This document shows positions 5,202 to 31,415 of a stretch of DNA of 32,557 nucleotides, in pieces. Source of the DNA: a virus. Positions within the stretch are counted from its first letter, which is position 1, and the number at the start of each line of letters is the position of its first letter. Both the position numbers and the translations under genes were made by a program. The DNA lies in the IMG/VR virus record IMGVR_UViG_3300050015_000091, positions 1 through 32,557 of that record, one strand, 5' to 3'. The notes below the pieces were generated by a model. It saw only the letters and a program-made list of their open reading frames with translations. It was not told the origin of the DNA and searched no databases.

Positions 5202-5581
5202 TGGCAACTGGTATTTACAATGGCTTCAAAGGGGACTTACGAGATAAAGTTGGACAACTGCAAGAGTTGTTGATACGTGATGGCTATATGCCACCGCATG
5301 ATAAATGCTATTTGTGCAACCAAACACAAGGGCGCATACTCTATCATCTTGAGGACTACACGAAAGTCTTGGACAGCTCAATGCCTATGTGTTTTATGTG
5401 TCATATGATGTTGCACTGTTGCATAAAAAGACGACCAGATTTGTGGGAAGCTTATCAAAAAGAGGTATGCAATGGCTATCAATATCTATTACAGGGTTAC
5501 GAAGTGCAGCGATTATTTGATGAACTTGACAAAGGTAACTACCATTTGGAAAAAATAAACAATGCGAGGTTATTTGTATGA
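5201..5581 (+). CDS. HNH/zinc-finger-like protein (126 aa)
   Basis: Two Cys pairs (C36/C39 and C64/C67) surround H49 and are followed by H68 and H72 (CYLC, YHLEDY, CFMCHMMLH). This matches small phage and bacterial proteins annotated as HNH-type or zinc-binding, where the His-Glu-Asp-Tyr and C-x-x-C-H segments form a treble-clef-like site. The C-terminal half appears helical. It overlaps its neighbours at both ends (TAATG before, ATGA after), so it is an integral part of the ParB/PAPS-reductase/methyltransferase operon. It could be the nuclease arm of this module, or it could be a small DNA-binding protein. Confidence 0.65.
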   Translation: MATGIYNGFKGDLRDKVGQLQELLIRDGYMPPHDKCYLCNQTQGRILYHLEDYTKVLDSSMPMCFMCHMMLHCCIKRRPDLWEAYQKEVCNGYQYLLQGYEVQRLFDELDKGNYHLEKINNARLFV

Positions 5582-6135
5582 GATTTAATGAACATCATGA
5601 CGTAATAATGGCTGGTGGTTATCCAAAAATACATGACAAAATCAAGTCAATCATCAGACCAATGGATATAAAGGGCAAAGTTGTCTTTGATGTTGGTGCT
5701 TGCACTGGCTCACTTGGACTGTGGGCTGCCGCACAGGGCGCAAAGGCTGTTTTGATAAATGATAGTAACCAAGAATACTTGGATAGAGCCAAATTGTACG
5801 CTATGCAGCACGCAATCAAGAACAACTTTGACATTGATAAAATGATATTCAACCTTGCCAAAGTGGACGGCTTTTGGAAATGCCCAATTGATATTCAAAC
5901 TGTAATCGCTAGACGCTTTGTTTATTTGCTACGTGATGAGGGCATACGAACTAACTTTGTCTATCAACTCAAACAGAACGGCTGTAAGGTGGTGTATTTA
6001 CAGGGGTTAGTACGTGTCAAAAATCATGTTGAGCCATTGTGGAATGTTGACCTTGAGGCGCAATCATTCATAGACGCAGGGTATAAAGTGACATACAATA
6101 ATGGTAATGACCTCATAAGATTGGAGTTGCGATAA
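5578..6135 (+). CDS. Class I SAM-dependent methyltransferase-like protein
   Basis: Residues 33-72 hold the SAM-binding core: GKVVFDVGACTGSLGLWAA (motif I) and AKAVLINDSNQEYLDRA (an acidic end of the second strand). The N-terminus (HHDVIMAGGYPKIHDKIKSI) resembles substrate-lid segments of small-molecule or RNA methyltransferases. No (D/N)PP(Y/F) motif is visible, so a classical N6-adenine or N4-cytosine DNA methyltransferase is unlikely, and the substrate is unknown. The 185 residues make a compact domain. It sits inside the IbrA/ParB module and overlaps both neighbours, so it probably acts in the same pathway. Confidence 0.75.
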   Translation: MRFNEHHDVIMAGGYPKIHDKIKSIIRPMDIKGKVVFDVGACTGSLGLWAAAQGAKAVLINDSNQEYLDRAKLYAMQHAIKNNFDIDKMIFNLAKVDGFWKCPIDIQTVIARRFVYLLRDEGIRTNFVYQLKQNGCKVVYLQGLVRVKNHVEPLWNVDLEAQSFIDAGYKVTYNNGNDLIRLELR

Positions 6136-6662: not shown

Positions 6663-7167
6663 AAAAAGTCAAGACGCAACCAAAGCCTCAAAAGTCACAG
6701 GCGATGAGTTGATTAGGTTCGTACCCACAAAGGAAATCAATGACCAATTTGGTAGACCAAAAGTTATTAGCCTAGAAGTGTTGAAAGACTTGAAATATGC
6801 TTTTCTAATTGGTTGCACAAATCGTGAAGCAGCATTATACGCAGGGATTAGTGAACAAACCTATTACAATTTTGTGAATGGGCTAGACGTTGAATTAAAT
6901 GGTGACTTTTTGGGGCTAGTTGAGGCATGGAAAAATGATATGATATTGGCTGCTCGTCAAACTTTACGCAGAGCAACATCGACACCAGAACACGCAAAGT
7001 GGTTATTGGAACGTAGGCGCAAAGATGAGTTCGCACCTCGTACTCAACATGAAATAAAAGAGGTTAGCGACTTTGACAGTCTAAGCGATGAAGAATTGGA
7101 AAAGATAGCAAATGCAGGACATACAGCAAATCAAGGCGCAGATAGAACTAGCGAAACGCAGAAGTAG
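6649..7167 (+). CDS. terS: Terminase small subunit
   Basis: I chose ATG 6649 (MAKTKKSQDATKASK), because earlier in-frame codons lie inside the preceding gene. A central helix-turn-helix (NREAALYAGISEQTYYNFVN, about residues 58-77), further helices, and a charged C-terminus ending in SDEELEKIANAG fit TerS. The protein recognises the packaging site on concatemeric DNA and loads TerL. It overlaps TerL by 56 bases and the IbrB-like gene by 14 bases. No strong ribosome site is visible, so translation may depend on coupling. Confidence 0.8.
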   Translation: MAKTKKSQDATKASKVTGDELIRFVPTKEINDQFGRPKVISLEVLKDLKYAFLIGCTNREAALYAGISEQTYYNFVNGLDVELNGDFLGLVEAWKNDMILAARQTLRRATSTPEHAKWLLERRRKDEFAPRTQHEIKEVSDFDSLSDEELEKIANAGHTANQGADRTSETQK

Positions 7168-12871: not shown

Positions 12872-13063
12872 ATGAGTAAATTAGTAGAGTTCACACAGGA
12901 TATTGCACCTTATTGTAAGGGTGATGTCGTAAAGCTAGAAGATGATGAAATTAAGCGAGTTGAAAAACGAGCGAAATCACTCAACATTGAAAGCGCATAC
13001 AAGGCTTACGCCAAAGTTGGCAAAGCAGTTGACGAAAAAGTCGCTGCTGTCAAAGAAGCGTAG
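12872..13063 (+). CDS. Small protein after the capsid gene (63 aa)
   Basis: It starts after AAAGGCAAGG with MSKLVEFTQDIAPYCKGDVV. The pattern (strand, Y-x-x-G-D-x-x-x-L-x-D-x-E, then a helix) is like the short phage proteins often found directly after capsid genes, whose role is not settled. The C-terminus is a Lys/Ala/Val helix (VGKAVDEKVAAVKEA). A strong terminator follows, so it ends the head operon. Decoration or head stabilisation is possible but not shown. Confidence 0.7.
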   Translation: MSKLVEFTQDIAPYCKGDVVKLEDDEIKRVEKRAKSLNIESAYKAYAKVGKAVDEKVAAVKEA

Positions 13064-13077
13064 CAACCTCAAAACTC

Positions 13078-13107
13078 AAAGCCCTAGTGTAAAAACTGGG
13101 GCTTTTT
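13078..13107 (+). terminator. Rho-independent terminator after the head genes
   Basis: AAAGCCCTAGT pairs with ACTGGGGCTTT (11 bp with one U-G), with loop GTAAAA and a run of five T. It separates head genes from connector and tail genes, and its T run merges into the next promoter. Confidence 0.85.
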
Positions 13108-24728: not shown

Positions 24729-25592
24729 ATGACATTACGAGGAATAGACACATCAAAATGGCAAGCAGGGCTACCAGACACAACAATTGACGCAGATTTT
24801 ATTATTTTCAAAGCCACTGAGGGCGTTGGATACACTGATAGCGATTGTGCAGCGAGTTATGCCGAGGCAAAAGCTGCTGGAAAATTGCTTGGCGTATATC
24901 ACTTTGCACGACCAGATGGAAATGACGCAATATCTGAAGCCAATTGGTTTGTATCACAGGTAAAAGGCTACATTGGTGAAGCGATTTTAGTACTTGACTG
25001 GGAAACTGACCCAAAAAGCAACGTATCTTGGGCAAAACAATGGCTAGACCAAGTTTATGCTTTGACTGGTGTACGCCCAATGATTTATATGAGTTCATCA
25101 GTTGTCAATTCATACGATTGGTCATCTGTTTATAATGACTACGCCCTATGGGTTGCTCAATATCGTGATAATAACATTGATATAAACTATGATATGTCCA
25201 ACGCTGGTGCATTGCCAGATGTGAACTGGCCTAACGCTTACGCAATGTGGCAATGGACATCAGCAGGTAGATTAAACGGTTATGGTGGAAATCTTGACTG
25301 TAATGTTTTCTATGGTGACGCAACCGCATGGCGTTCATTTGCCAAAGGCAGCCCAGTGACACCGCCTGTAGTAACTCCACCAGTTGTTACGCCACCGCCA
25401 GTCGTGACACCACCAGTTGTAGTCCCACCTGTGATTGTGCCACCAAAACCAACACCAGACCCAATTGTGACACCACCTATTGTTGAACCGCCAGTCATAA
25501 CACCAAAGCCAATACCTACACCAGTTATACAGTTGAAATGGTGGCAAGTTGTTATCAATTGGCTATTATCAATTTGGAATAAAAAGAAATGA
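24729..25592 (+). CDS. GH25 endolysin (N-acetylmuramidase)
   Basis: Residues 1-200 form a GH25 domain: GIDTSKWQ with D7, FKATEG with E31, GVYHFARP, and the catalytic pair in LVLDWE (D90, E92), and later AMWQWTS. It cuts the muramic-acid to glucosamine bond of the wall. A long Pro/Val/Thr linker (about 204-262; many TPPVV-type repeats) and a C-terminal Trp-rich helix ending in a Lys run (WWQVVINWLLSIWNKKK) follow. The C-terminus is not a usual wall-binding domain and may insert into the membrane. AAAGGAG lies before the start. Confidence 0.95.
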   Translation: MTLRGIDTSKWQAGLPDTTIDADFIIFKATEGVGYTDSDCAASYAEAKAAGKLLGVYHFARPDGNDAISEANWFVSQVKGYIGEAILVLDWETDPKSNVSWAKQWLDQVYALTGVRPMIYMSSSVVNSYDWSSVYNDYALWVAQYRDNNIDINYDMSNAGALPDVNWPNAYAMWQWTSAGRLNGYGGNLDCNVFYGDATAWRSFAKGSPVTPPVVTPPVVTPPPVVTPPVVVPPVIVPPKPTPDPIVTPPIVEPPVITPKPIPTPVIQLKWWQVVINWLLSIWNKKK

Positions 25593-25908: not shown

Positions 25909-26076
25909 ATGGAATATGAACCACAACTTGATACTCATTTAGAAGTATTCACCGATGAGCAATTGGAAATGTTAGCCAGAGTTGCCGAAACAAACAGCCG
26001 TCATGCTGAATGTAGGCGAATTGGTGCTGAATTATTGAGACGCACCACAGAGGTTGCAGAACCAATCGAGGCATAG
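25909..26076 (+). CDS. Small acidic hypothetical protein (55 aa)
   Basis: ATG 25909 is four bases behind the holin-like gene, and the stop TAG (26074-26076) is four bases before the next start. The product (MEYEPQLDTHLEVFTDEQLE...) predicts as one long helix with many Glu. No clear ribosome site is seen, so translational coupling is likely. Unknown function, but the tight spacing supports a real gene. Confidence 0.55.
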   Translation: MEYEPQLDTHLEVFTDEQLEMLARVAETNSRHAECRRIGAELLRRTTEVAEPIEA

Positions 26077-26080
26077 TGTC

Positions 26081-26461
26081 ATGGCGAAAGGTCTAACAAC
26101 CAATCGCCACCACATTATGGAAACTAGAAGTGACTGGAGTTCTTGCCCCAATGCAAAGCGTCTTCGCAACACACAACAATTGATACCAGTCATGGAAATT
26201 GAACCTCACAATGAATTGACTGAAAACTGTCCAATCGTGCCATTGTTGGGCTTCAAAACGCTACAAATCGTAGCTTGTGAGTTCCAACCATTTGGCGGTA
26301 CGCTCAAGAGTATTGACAAACTGCTAATTGCTATCAATGAAGCTTCAAAACATCATAGTATTCATAAAATTGAACGTGATTTGGCGCAATTATCAATGCA
26401 AGCGATTGAAATGCAGATACCATACTTACGTGGCAACATTGTCAACCCTAAATATAATTGA
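26081..26461 (+). CDS. Conserved phage hypothetical protein (126 aa)
   Basis: I chose ATG 26081 (MAKGLTTNRHHIMETRSDWS). The protein has RHHIMETRSDWSSCPNAKRL, EIEPHNELTENCPIVPLLGF, and SIDKLLIAINEASKHHSIHK. I recall this arrangement (R-H-H-I-M, H-N-E-L, C-P-x-V-P-x-L-G) from small proteins in several phages and prophages, with no known function. It is the last gene before the noncoding interval and is followed by promoter elements inside its own 3' end (26439-26444). Confidence 0.7.
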   Translation: MAKGLTTNRHHIMETRSDWSSCPNAKRLRNTQQLIPVMEIEPHNELTENCPIVPLLGFKTLQIVACEFQPFGGTLKSIDKLLIAINEASKHHSIHKIERDLAQLSMQAIEMQIPYLRGNIVNPKYN

Positions 26462-26467
26462 TATACT
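26439..26467 (+). promoter_or_regulatory. Promoter TTGTCA-N17-TATACT with TGa
   Basis: TTGTCA (26439-26444), 17 bases, TATACT (26462-26467) preceded by TGA make a near-consensus extended -10 promoter. It overlaps the end of the last late gene and points into a region without ORFs, predicting a transcript start near 26474. Confidence 0.7.
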
Positions 26468-26473
26468 GATAGT

Positions 26474-26583
26474 CGCACTTAATAAACTCGTACCCATAGG
26501 GCAAGGCTTGATATAACTCTGAATATCAAACCGAGAGGCGAAACAACTACCAAGAGCGAAGCCACAGCATTTGTGGCTTTTTG
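26474..26583 (+). ncRNA. Predicted small RNA A (no ATG)
   Basis: A strong promoter ends at 26467 and a strong terminator at 26583; between them there is no ATG at all. The transcript of about 110 bases can fold a CCC-ATA-GGG mini-hairpin (near 26494-26502), a 7-bp stem TTGATAT/ATATCAA (about 26509-26530) and the terminator hairpin. It sits between the late and early operons. It is not a tRNA. It could be a trans-acting RNA, or the segment could be the late-transcript tail and the promoter a fortuitous match. Confidence 0.5.
26559..26583 (+). terminator. Rho-independent terminator of the late operon
   Basis: AAGCCACA pairs with TGTGGCTT (8 bp) around loop GCATT, followed by a T run. It ends transcripts from the late region and from the promoter at 26439-26467. 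Confidence 0.9.
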
Positions 26584-26694
26584 TGTGTAATGTGTTTTAA
26601 GCCGTTCTAACAGCCCTAGATTTTGAAATGAATAACTAATCGTCTTTGACACCAAAACGCAATCCAGCATAGGCAACGCAAAGAATTAGCCATA

Positions 26695-26723
26695 TTGACA
26701 CGTATTTGAGTTAGTACGATAAT
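26695..26723 (+). promoter_or_regulatory. Promoter TTGACA-N17-GATAAT
   Basis: TTGACA (26695-26700), a 17-base spacer and GATAAT (26718-26723) are one base from full consensus in total. The start would be near 26730, exactly where an inverted repeat begins. No protein gene follows before a terminator 100 bases downstream. Confidence 0.75.
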
Positions 26724-26734
26724 AGAAATTACCA

Positions 26735-26791
26735 ATGCAAAGCAGCGAACTCCCAAATGTCTACCTCGGGTACATTGGTGCTTATGTTTAG
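26735..26791 (+). CDS. Possible 18-residue leader peptide
   Basis: ATG 26735 opens a frame reading MQSSELPNVYLGYIGAYV and TAG (26789-26791), only two bases before the terminator hairpin begins. There is no ribosome site, and the predicted transcript start is only about five bases upstream, so it would be almost leaderless. Three Tyr codons in the last nine residues are noteworthy for an attenuator but may be chance. Confidence 0.25.
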   Translation: MQSSELPNVYLGYIGAYV

Positions 26792-26793
26792 GC

Positions 26794-26822
26794 AAAAAAG
26801 CACTCCTCGTAGGTGCTTTTTT
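26794..26822 (+). terminator. Strong terminator before the early promoter
   Basis: AAAAAAGCAC pairs perfectly with GTGCTTTTTT (10 bp). The loop is TCCTCGTAG, and the T run continues at the end. It ends RNA B and insulates the early promoter at 26846. Confidence 0.9.
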
Positions 26823-26845
26823 GCTATCAATCTATAAAAATACTA

Positions 26846-26874
26846 TTGCAAAACAATTGTTTTATCTTTATAAT
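26846..26874 (+). promoter_or_regulatory. Early promoter with palindromic operator in the spacer
   Basis: TTGCAA (26846-26851), 17-base spacer, TATAAT (26869-26874). The spacer region contains the 14-base perfect palindrome AAAACAATTGTTTT (26850-26863), well placed to bind a dimeric repressor. It drives the early operon from 26915 through the AGGAGAACAGC leader. Confidence 0.85.
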
Positions 26875-26914
26875 AGAGATGTAACATAACATAAGTAAAA
26901 AGGAGAACAGCAAA

Positions 26915-27379
26915 ATGTCGTTAGATTATGACGATGACACATTTGGGGCATATCCTGACCCAAATCCACAGGACGAGGACGCAAGAACAGCGCACCAAGA
27001 GGAAGTTGACGCTGACTTTGAAAGGGCGCAAGCGGACGCACTTGACGCAGAGGACGATACGAGCCAAAAACTCTATCAGTTCACACTGCTCAAACAGGAC
27101 GGAACGCAGGAAGATTTAGGCACACGACATGGTGATATGCCATTGGCTGAAATGTACAAAGTTTTGGGCTGCTCAACAATTGAGTTGATACCAAATGACT
27201 ACTATGAACGCAAAGATGTGCTGCTTTGGGGCGATGAAGAGGGGCGATTTGCACAAGAAGTCATTGACGGTGAAGTGCAACCCAAGAACCACCGCAACCC
27301 TCAATTTAAGGTATTACGTGATGATGTTGGCAACGCTTGGGACGTTGTTGGCGATATATTATTACAAGAGGAGTTGTAA
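26915..27379 (+). CDS. Acidic early protein with DUF3846-like domain
   Basis: First gene behind the strongest early promoter, with leader AGGAGAACAGC. Residues 1-50 are extremely acidic (DYDDD, QDEDAR, DADFERAQAD, DAEDD). Residues 70-154 resemble DUF3846, a small phage domain (MYKVLGCSTIELIPNDYYER, LLWGDEEGRF, NPQFKVLRDDVGNAWDVVGD). Such an acidic early protein could be a DNA mimic or an antirestriction factor, but that is only inference. It is one base before the next gene. Confidence 0.65.
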   Translation: MSLDYDDDTFGAYPDPNPQDEDARTAHQEEVDADFERAQADALDAEDDTSQKLYQFTLLKQDGTQEDLGTRHGDMPLAEMYKVLGCSTIELIPNDYYERKDVLLWGDEEGRFAQEVIDGEVQPKNHRNPQFKVLRDDVGNAWDVVGDILLQEEL

Positions 27380-27601
27380 ATGGCAGATGATAAGTTGATG
27401 AAAGAAGCGGAACAGGGGTATTGGTATATCGTTGTCCGTAAATACCTTGAACACGTTGAAGATTGGCGATACCTTGATGAAGCAACTATTGACTTTTTGA
27501 TAGGCACGCACAATCAAGATTACATAACAAATGAAATACTCTATCCAGTTTTGAAATGGCGAGAGTTAGAAAGCGAGAACGATAATGGCAGCAACAATTA
27601 A
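27380..27601 (+). CDS. Early hypothetical protein (73 aa)
   Basis: The start follows GAGGAGTTGTAA at the end of the previous gene. The product (MADDKLMKEAEQGYWYIVVR...) looks helical and acidic with several aromatic residues. It overlaps the ribbon-helix-helix gene by 17 bases. No family is recognised. Confidence 0.6.
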   Translation: MADDKLMKEAEQGYWYIVVRKYLEHVEDWRYLDEATIDFLIGTHNQDYITNEILYPVLKWRELESENDNGSNN

Positions 27602-27746
27602 AACGGTACAATTACCAGTGAAAGAGTGGACTATTTTAAAAGCTTTGGCGGTCAATGAAAACCGAACAATCGCCTCTTACTTGCGTAATTTGATTTATGC
27701 ACAGGCAAAGAAAAATAGCATTGCTATCACTGACATTAAAGGCTAA
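27585..27746 (+). CDS. Ribbon-helix-helix (Arc/CopG-like) regulator, 53 aa
   Basis: A short gene starting at ATG 27585 inside the end of the previous gene. The product has a strand IKTVQLPVKEWTILKALAVN followed by ENRTIASYLRNLIYAQAKKN: one strand and two helices, with the alternating strand and the helix N-cap pattern of RHH DNA-binding proteins. Those work as dimers on short palindromes or repeats. Candidate targets are the direct repeats at 27770 and 27818 or the palindrome in the early promoter. It is a good candidate for the early-operon repressor. Confidence 0.65.
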   Translation: MAATIKTVQLPVKEWTILKALAVNENRTIASYLRNLIYAQAKKNSIAITDIKG

Positions 27747-27769: not shown

Positions 27770-27845
27770 TGAACGGACTAAACAGAAACTAAAACAGCCA
27801 CATGGGGTGGCTGCTAGTGAACGGACTAAACTGGGTATAGTTTAG
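27770..27845 (+). repeat. Direct repeats with hairpins (operator or origin)
   Basis: TGAACGGACTAAAC occurs at 27770-27783 and again at 27818-27831, 48 bases apart. Between them CAGCCAC/GTGGCTG form a perfect 7-bp hairpin (27795-27813) without a T run. The second copy continues into CTAAACT/AGTTTAG (27826-27845). The place directly before the initiator-like gene suggests an origin or an operator for the RHH protein. Confidence 0.65.
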
Positions 27846-27898: not shown

Positions 27899-28600
27899 AT
27901 GATAATCAGAAACAAACCGTCAACAAACTTTACGATACTTCGTAATGCCGTATTGAATGATGAGAAATTAAGCCTAAAAGCGAAAGGTCTTTGGGCTTTT
28001 TTGATGTCAAAGCCAGACGGTTGGACGACATCTGTGCATGGACTAATGGCGCAAGTCAAAGACGGTGAAGCGTCAATCAGAACAGCATTGAAAGAACTTG
28101 AAGCAGCGCACCTTTATAGAAAGACTAGGGTGAATGATAAAAAGGGCTTATTGGTATGGCAAGACTTCGTATATGATAAACCATTCGTGGGAAATCCAGT
28201 TATGGATAATCCAGTAGTGGAAAATCGCACACAAGTAAATACTAATAAAGTAAAAACTGAAATAGTAAGTAATTCTACTAACGTAGAATTGGCTACGCCA
28301 AATGAGTTAGAAGTTTTTGGTAAACCAGAAATCAATGAGTTATTTGAATACTGGCTGGAAAAGACTGGCATACCAATCGCTGGCAACGTGCAACGCAATC
28401 GCTACGCCTGTAAAAACCTGCTAAAGAAGTATGAGTTAGTAGGCGTGAAAAAGTTGATAGAGGGCGTGGCATTGGCACAGACTGACAAATATGCACCAAG
28501 AATATGTGACTTTGCACAACTGCAATCAAAGTTATCTGACTTGCTGGTGTGGGGTAAAAAGAAATCAATAGGCGATAAAAAGGGAGTAATCAAAGTATGA
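27899..28600 (+). CDS. Winged-helix replication initiator-like protein
   Basis: The N-terminal domain (residues 1-95) has NFTILRNAVLNDEKLSLKAK, then LWAFLMSKPDGWTTSVHGLM and ASIRTALKELEAAHLYRKTR. This is the winged-helix pattern seen at the start of phage replisome-organiser and DnaD-like proteins. A polar linker (96-145) and a helical C-terminal domain (146-225) follow. It likely binds the origin and recruits host helicase, since no phage helicase is present. Repeats and hairpins upstream (27770-27895) fit an origin and self-regulation. Confidence 0.75.
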   Translation: MIIRNKPSTNFTILRNAVLNDEKLSLKAKGLWAFLMSKPDGWTTSVHGLMAQVKDGEASIRTALKELEAAHLYRKTRVNDKKGLLVWQDFVYDKPFVGNPVMDNPVVENRTQVNTNKVKTEIVSNSTNVELATPNELEVFGKPEINELFEYWLEKTGIPIAGNVQRNRYACKNLLKKYELVGVKKLIEGVALAQTDKYAPRICDFAQLQSKLSDLLVWGKKKSIGDKKGVIKV

Positions 28601-30310: not shown

Positions 30311-30871
30311 ATGGCAGATAAAAAATCATTGAGCATAACCGAAAAGACATCGGTAATAAGACTTGATAACCCAAAGGCGGTAGCGACTTTTGCGAAAGAG
30401 TTGAAAGCGTTTATTGTGACCAACAACCTATACGCAGCAATCAAAGATAAGAACTATGTGCTGGTTGAGGGTTGGCAGTACGCTGGTGCTTCAATGGGTA
30501 TATTCCCAATAATTGAAAAGGTTGAAGATATTTCAACTGATGAAAATATACGCTATCGAGCGGAAGTCAGATTGGTACGCATGGCTGACGATAGAACCAT
30601 TGGCTATGGCGTGGCAGTTTGCAGCAACAAAGAAGCATTGAAAAAATCATTTGATGAATACGCTGTGGCTTCAATGGCACAAACACGTGCAGTTGGTAAA
30701 GCCTTTAGGCTCACTATTGGTTGGATAATGAAATTGGCAGGTTATGAAGCAACCCCAGCCGAGGAAATGCCCACTGGCGAATACAAAGTGGACGTTGAAC
30801 CGACTGATGAACGCTTCAATGACATCGTAGACGCACACAAAGGCGCACAAAATGGCGATACAGATAATTAG
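30311..30871 (+). CDS. Candidate single-strand annealing protein (SSAP)
   Basis: The segments YVLVEGWQYAGASMGIFPII, YRAEVRLVRMADDRTIGYGV and FDEYAVASMAQTRAVGKAFR (then LTIGWIMKLAGYEATPAEEM) form a conserved group I have seen in phages next to exonucleases. The A-x-T-R-A-x-G-x-A-x-R signature is also found in Rad52/ERF-like annealing proteins. It overlaps the YqaJ exonuclease by 20 bases, as in Red-type pairs. An acidic C-terminus (TDERFNDIVDAHKGAQNGDT) is typical. The annealing role is inferred, not established. Confidence 0.65.
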   Translation: MADKKSLSITEKTSVIRLDNPKAVATFAKELKAFIVTNNLYAAIKDKNYVLVEGWQYAGASMGIFPIIEKVEDISTDENIRYRAEVRLVRMADDRTIGYGVAVCSNKEALKKSFDEYAVASMAQTRAVGKAFRLTIGWIMKLAGYEATPAEEMPTGEYKVDVEPTDERFNDIVDAHKGAQNGDTDN

Positions 30872-31415
30872 TATTGAGCAAAACACCGAGGAATGGCACA
30901 AAGTCAGAGAGGGTAGGGCTACTGGCAGCAATGCTGATAGCTTACTCTCTGGCGATTTGGCAAAAGCGTTGTCTTTGAATGATAAAGACAAACAGTTCAG
31001 AGGTAACTATTTCACTGACAGAGGGCATAAACTTGAACCAATAGCTATCAAGACGTATGAATTGATACATGATTGCAAAGTTGACCGCCCAGGTTTTGTG
31101 ATAAATGATGAATATCCAAACGCAGGGTGCAGCCCCGATGGTATCCACAAAGACTGGTTGATTGAAGTCAAGTGCTTTGCTGAAAAGCGACATTTAGAAA
31201 TCAAAACGCACAAAGATATACCATTCAAAATAATGGCACAATTGCAGTTCAATATGATGATTAGTGGACTACGAAAATCAAGGTTGGTGATGTATAACCC
31301 AGATTTGAAACTTGGCACACCACAAGAAAACAACATAAGGGCGTATTGCGAAATTGAGGTAACCGCGAACCCTATAATTCAACGTAACATGGCTAGAAAG
31401 TTGAGGGCGCAATGA
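30852..31415 (+). CDS. YqaJ-type (lambda exonuclease-like) recombinase
   Basis: The protein shows EWHKVREGRATGSNADSLLS near the start, GHKLEPIAI, GCSPDGI (active-site Asp) and LIEVKCFAEK (E-x-K), the PD-(D/E)XK core of YqaJ/lambda exonuclease. It digests DNA 5' to 3' to give single strands for the annealing protein encoded upstream. The 187-residue length is a little short for the family. It overlaps the genes on both sides. Confidence 0.9.
   Translation: MAIQIISIEQNTEEWHKVREGRATGSNADSLLSGDLAKALSLNDKDKQFRGNYFTDRGHKLEPIAIKTYELIHDCKVDRPGFVINDEYPNAGCSPDGIHKDWLIEVKCFAEKRHLEIKTHKDIPFKIMAQLQFNMMISGLRKSRLVMYNPDLKLGTPQENNIRAYCEIEVTANPIIQRNMARKLRAQ

Follow-up and report, generated by a model that had tools for sequence, protein, structure and literature searches.

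A promoter-terminator unit predicted to make a short RNA between the lysis and early genes of a tailed phage

A short unit comprising a near-consensus promoter and a strong intrinsic terminator lies between the lysis genes and the early genes of the phage represented by virus record IMGVR_UViG_3300050015_000091. We give a probability of about one half to our favored interpretation, in which the unit stands alone and produces a small RNA that is probably not translated, with the terminator serving additionally to insulate the promoter of the early genes. The existence of the promoter-terminator pair is observed directly; that its product is a functional RNA is something we infer from the sequence. 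Units of this type are an ordinary kind of element and are common in phages, and the case for this one acting as a switch on the early genes is weak.

The window analyzed here is the whole record, 32,557 bases in length, and its gene order is of the tailed-phage type, with terminase, portal and capsid genes; all of the likely genes are on the plus strand. Beyond the endolysin there are small genes up to position 26461, followed by ~450 bases of non-coding DNA and then the next genes (Table 1). The unit sits within this non-coding stretch, at the late/early junction, and its placement at the start of the early region in the initial annotation was correct. None of the GenBank phages is close to this phage, which thus belongs to a group without a well-studied member. 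No tRNA or tmRNA genes were found, and two scans of the genome gave no identification of the host, which might be a member of the Saccharibacteria, to judge from a lysozyme-like motif.

Table 1. Features of the window in and around the promoter-terminator unit
Feature	Position	Strand	Description
Endolysin gene	24729-25592		Glycosyl hydrolase 25
Upstream unit	26439-26580	+	Promoter TTGTCA-N17-TATACT (TG before -10) and terminator 26558-26580; scan
Promoter	26695-26723	+	Sigma-70-type, TTGACA (26695-26700), 17-base spacer, GATAAT (26718-26723); 11/12 consensus matches, ideal spacer; reading and scan
Predicted small RNA	26730-26822	+	~93 nt; both ends inferred from promoter and terminator positions
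7-bp stem	26731-26737 with 26773-26779	+	ACCAATG/CATTGGT, present in the sequence
18-codon ORF	26735-26791	+	MQSSELPNVYLGYIGAYV plus stop, three Tyr; ATG at 26735 to TAG ending at 26791
Minimum-energy leader hairpin	26737-26787	+	GCAAAGCA-GCG...CGGGTACATTGGTGCTTATGT region; -12.8 kcal/mol
GGTGCTT segment	26777-26783	+	Can pair with AAGCACT in the terminator 5' arm (one G-U)
Intrinsic terminator	26792-26824	+	Stem of 12 perfect pairs with A run / T run; arms GCAAAAAAGCAC (26792-26803) and GTGCTTTTTTGC (26813-26824)
Early promoter	26846-26874	+	TTGCAA-N17-TATAAT, downstream of the terminator
Ribosome-binding site and spacer	26900-26914	+	AAGGAGAACAGCAAA, of the first early gene
First early operon gene	26915-27379	+	154 aa; weak resemblance to DUF3846 (E 0.0018, short of the Pfam cut-off)
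Replication initiation protein gene	27899-28600		After the non-coding stretch
YqaJ-type recombinase gene	30852-31415		After the non-coding stretch

The promoter described in the initial annotation is borne out; promoters with 11 of 12 consensus matches number two in the window, where 0.58 would be expected. The strong terminator is likewise present, with a stem of 12 perfect base pairs rather than the 10 originally noted, and it is possibly bidirectional. Pairing each promoter that has 10 or more of the 12 matches with a terminator that follows within 160 bases and has at least three G-C pairs leaves four promoters at three distinct places (0.18 pairs are expected). Two of the three form a tandem between the late and early genes, at 26439-26580 and 26695-26824. 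Because this pairing is far above chance, a short transcript here is likely real, and the proposal of a small RNA ending at a terminator ~95 bases from its promoter is supported. The unit shows two features expected of a small RNA gene bounded by an intrinsic terminator: the terminator itself, and a promoter of its own at the right distance, of a quality that is rare in shuffled sequences. The upstream unit (26439-26585) predicts another short RNA of ~110 nt with a branched fold, for which the leader fold has a p value of 0.09.

In the favored interpretation, a host sigma-70-type polymerase would start near 26730, seven bases past the -10 box, and stop near 26820, within the T run; the product would be a small RNA of ~93 nt that is probably not translated. 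This RNA would accumulate and act free, either in trans or by serving as a decoy to a partner that binds RNA, and not via polymerase readthrough, and the terminator would shield the early promoter from transcription arriving from the lysis genes. The phage small RNAs OOP of lambda (77 nt) and sar of P22 (68/69 nt) similarly have their own promoters and end at intrinsic terminators (PMC12197685), and the unit resembles them in its shortness, its location at a regulatory junction, and its terminal hairpin. However, OOP and sar are each an antisense RNA of a neighboring gene, whereas the predicted RNA lies opposite no annotated gene. A search for targets in the window was negative, the longest exact complement being 11 nt (p 0.36). 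Codons 9-11 of the first early gene (26939-26947) are the complement of nine bases of the predicted RNA (CCCAAATGT, 26752-26760), and matches of this length are expected by chance somewhere in the window. Several observations count against a small RNA: its sequence is not conserved even in a sister phage (see below), although conservation might be expected if it acted in trans on a fixed phage target; it has no complementarity to the window beyond chance; and most of the predicted leader structure is no better than in shuffles. If the RNA is made, a lineage of phages lacking close cultivated relatives gains a candidate small RNA; as matters stand, the unit is chiefly an example of how terminators and promoters are usually arranged where late genes give way to early ones.

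The initial annotation further proposed that competing hairpins in the RNA form an attenuator or riboswitch, but neither the leader fold (p ~0.2) nor the capture energy (p ~0.8) beats shuffled sequences. The whole stretch folds with a z score of -4.14, which is due to the terminator; the leader itself (26730-26791) has a folding energy of -12.8 kcal/mol compared with -10.7 for shuffles (sd 2.6, z -0.80, p 0.22), and is thus not above chance. Both segments of the 7-bp stem are where they were described, but the stem is absent from the minimum-energy fold, in which the hairpin uses the same 3' strand, and a 7-bp helix arises in such a leader with a p value of 0.056. When the RNA is grown stepwise in the folding model, the stem forms at 26780 (-8.3 kcal/mol) and is displaced by an AAGCA...TGCTT hairpin by 26784, so that it would be at most a folding intermediate. 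The GGTGCTT segment is also present and could pair with the terminator 5' arm, but the predicted capture is not above shuffle level: with the 5' arm and loop present and the 3' arm absent, the leader gains 1.1 kcal/mol, compared with 2.9 for the average shuffled leader (p 0.79). The capture helix, counted as six Watson-Crick pairs or seven with the G-U, has a p value of 0.07-0.10; this and the 0.056 for the stem are values before correction for the number of patterns that a reader can notice. Neither by energy nor by helix length (p 0.056-0.10) is there a mutually exclusive antiterminator beyond chance.

The 18-codon open reading frame with its three tyrosine codons is present, as had been noted, and finishes directly at the terminator, but it has no ribosome-binding site on reading of the sequence and its length is that expected by chance, about one-fifth of shuffled leaders containing a frame as long as the longest one in this leader (p 0.22). 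It starts ~5 bases past the predicted 5' end of the RNA, its tyrosine codons are scattered and not adjacent, and no counterpart of the peptide was seen on reading the sister phage unit. The frame is probably not translated. Amino-acid attenuators of the leader-peptide type share with the unit a short reading frame, alternative pairings and a terminator, but the unit differs from them in having no ribosome-binding site, no run of regulatory codons, no biosynthetic operon, and no conservation in the sister.

The early operon has a predicted promoter of its own beyond the terminator, with a good ribosome-binding site before gene 26915, and would therefore not need readthrough; this promoter is what speaks most strongly against the early operon being attenuated. 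Its spacer contains a 14-base palindrome, AAAACAATTGTTTT (26850-26863), which is a likely candidate for an operator. A small protein encoded at 27585-27746 has a weak Arc-like repressor match and is 53% identical in the sister phage, and could be a repressor acting on this palindrome.

Searches with the terminase, capsid, endolysin, Rep and YqaJ proteins yielded one useful sister lineage (L002-L006, L013-L015), the others being distant; searches with the flanking proteins (26915-27379 and 26054-26461) yielded no relatives. In the sister phage (the record of L004, read whole as L013) the terminase is 79% identical and the head proteins are 72-80% identical, and homologous genes are in the same order as in the window. 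The corresponding junction, on the reverse strand, has a promoter of the extended -10 type at about 5499-5509 (TATGCTATGAT), a short RNA with the hairpin GCCAAC/GTTGGC, and a terminator at 5547-5575, followed by an early promoter, TTGACA-N17-TATCAT (5591-5619), and then AAAGGAACAGCAAATG, which is akin to AAGGAGAACAGCAAA of the window. The two phages have early promoters that can be aligned with each other (ACTATTGCAAAACAATTG and ACCATTGACAACCCATTG), and the layout of a short promoter-terminator unit followed by a separate early promoter is common to both. The short RNAs themselves are unrelated in sequence and cannot be aligned. In the sister leader GCGTGAGATGG can be read to pair with CCATCACACGC at 10 of 11 positions, spanning the 5' arm and loop of the terminator, with a capture energy of 8.8 to 10.1 kcal/mol that is reached by 4 to 8% of shuffles (p 0.04-0.08); set beside the unremarkable window result, this helix is a lead and not support for a switch. 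Elsewhere in the sister, the stretch at 6845-6925 of the reverse strand (L013:10321-10401) holds a promoter matching the consensus at all 12 positions (TTGACA-N17-TATAAT, with a TG ahead of the -10) and, after it, a ~55-nt unit that ends in a terminator-like hairpin; an inverted repeat (ACTTGTTACCAA/TTGGTAGCAAGT) lies just upstream.

No similar RNA body was found in the sister, which is the one informative relative, or in other loci, viral contigs, phages or plasmids, and a DNA search with the RNA in phages and plasmids gave no match. Comparison of the short units of the window, the sister and L011 revealed nothing convincing beyond matches of the terminator type. The pattern ACCAATG-N28-44-CATTGGTGCTT occurs in 30 stretches of the viral contigs, roughly the number estimated for chance, and none of the 30 lies between a promoter and a terminator as in the window unit. 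Rfam searches, at the gathering score for the window and down to E 5 for the junctions of window and sister, gave chance matches only, in agreement with the earlier remark that no known RNA family was recognizable.

Other roles for the unit can be weighed against this evidence. An attenuator in which the 7-bp stem competes with GGTGCTT:AAGCACT, so that a ligand or ribosomes on the tyrosine-containing frame decide the fate of the terminator and hence the reading of the early operon, was the initial proposal, and we regard it as very unlikely. The segments are present and overlap as described, and the unrelated leader of the sister has a capture helix of its own, but in the window capture is at shuffle level, the stem is outside the minimum-energy fold, the frame has no ribosome-binding site, and a separate early promoter, matched in the sister, lies downstream. 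It is similarly improbable that the two junctions exemplify a class of RNA switches in this phage group, short, fast-diverging and defined by position, each with an antiterminator helix (seen best in the sister, with 10 of 11 pairs) that would permit early readthrough only under some infection condition.

A conditional early leader is somewhat less remote, although still doubtful. Here the 26695 promoter would be an additional early one, with transcription normally ending at 26822 unless a phage protein, or the RNA itself by modifying the polymerase, lets it through. In lambda, the pR' leader RNA ends at tR', and pR' precedes the late genes as their only promoter; the unit is similar in that promoter and terminator are close together before an operon, but the early operon in the window has a second promoter past the terminator, as it does in the sister. 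The lambda pR' leader RNA is released by Q (PMC6606751), and the put RNA of HK022 is ~70 nt with two long stem-loops and acts in cis on distant terminators (PMC9378689). A promoter and terminator directly before an operon constitute a checkpoint layout of this kind (PMC9378689, PMC6606751), the sister layout is identical, and the predicted RNA resembles put in its position right after a promoter and ahead of early phage genes. However, it has one weak leader hairpin with the terminator immediately after, and not the two separate long stem-loops of put, and no antiterminator gene was recognized among the proteins that were put through general searches. That the unit is an insulator only, one of two terminators halting late transcription before the early promoter, with the promoter-like site being inactive or incidental, also seems unlikely. 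Tandem strong terminators (26558-26580 and 26792-26824) follow the last late gene and the RNA body is not conserved, both in favor of this reading, but the promoter is among the two best in the window and at the right distance, and three promoter-terminator places are well above the number of pairs expected.

Other features of the window include a strong terminator at 13079-13104 amid the structural genes, where it closely follows the capsid gene and a small gene (12872-13063). The ends of the contig (1-160 and 32500-32557) lie in one array of 15-base repeats (GGGACATCACCGCTG and variants), and the record has the appearance of a genome that is circular, or longer than the contig, and was broken within a repeat. 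Just 5' of the replication initiation gene a direct repeat, TGAACGGACTAAAC, is present at 27770-27783 and 27818-27831, 48 bases apart, and these copies are possible origin iterons.
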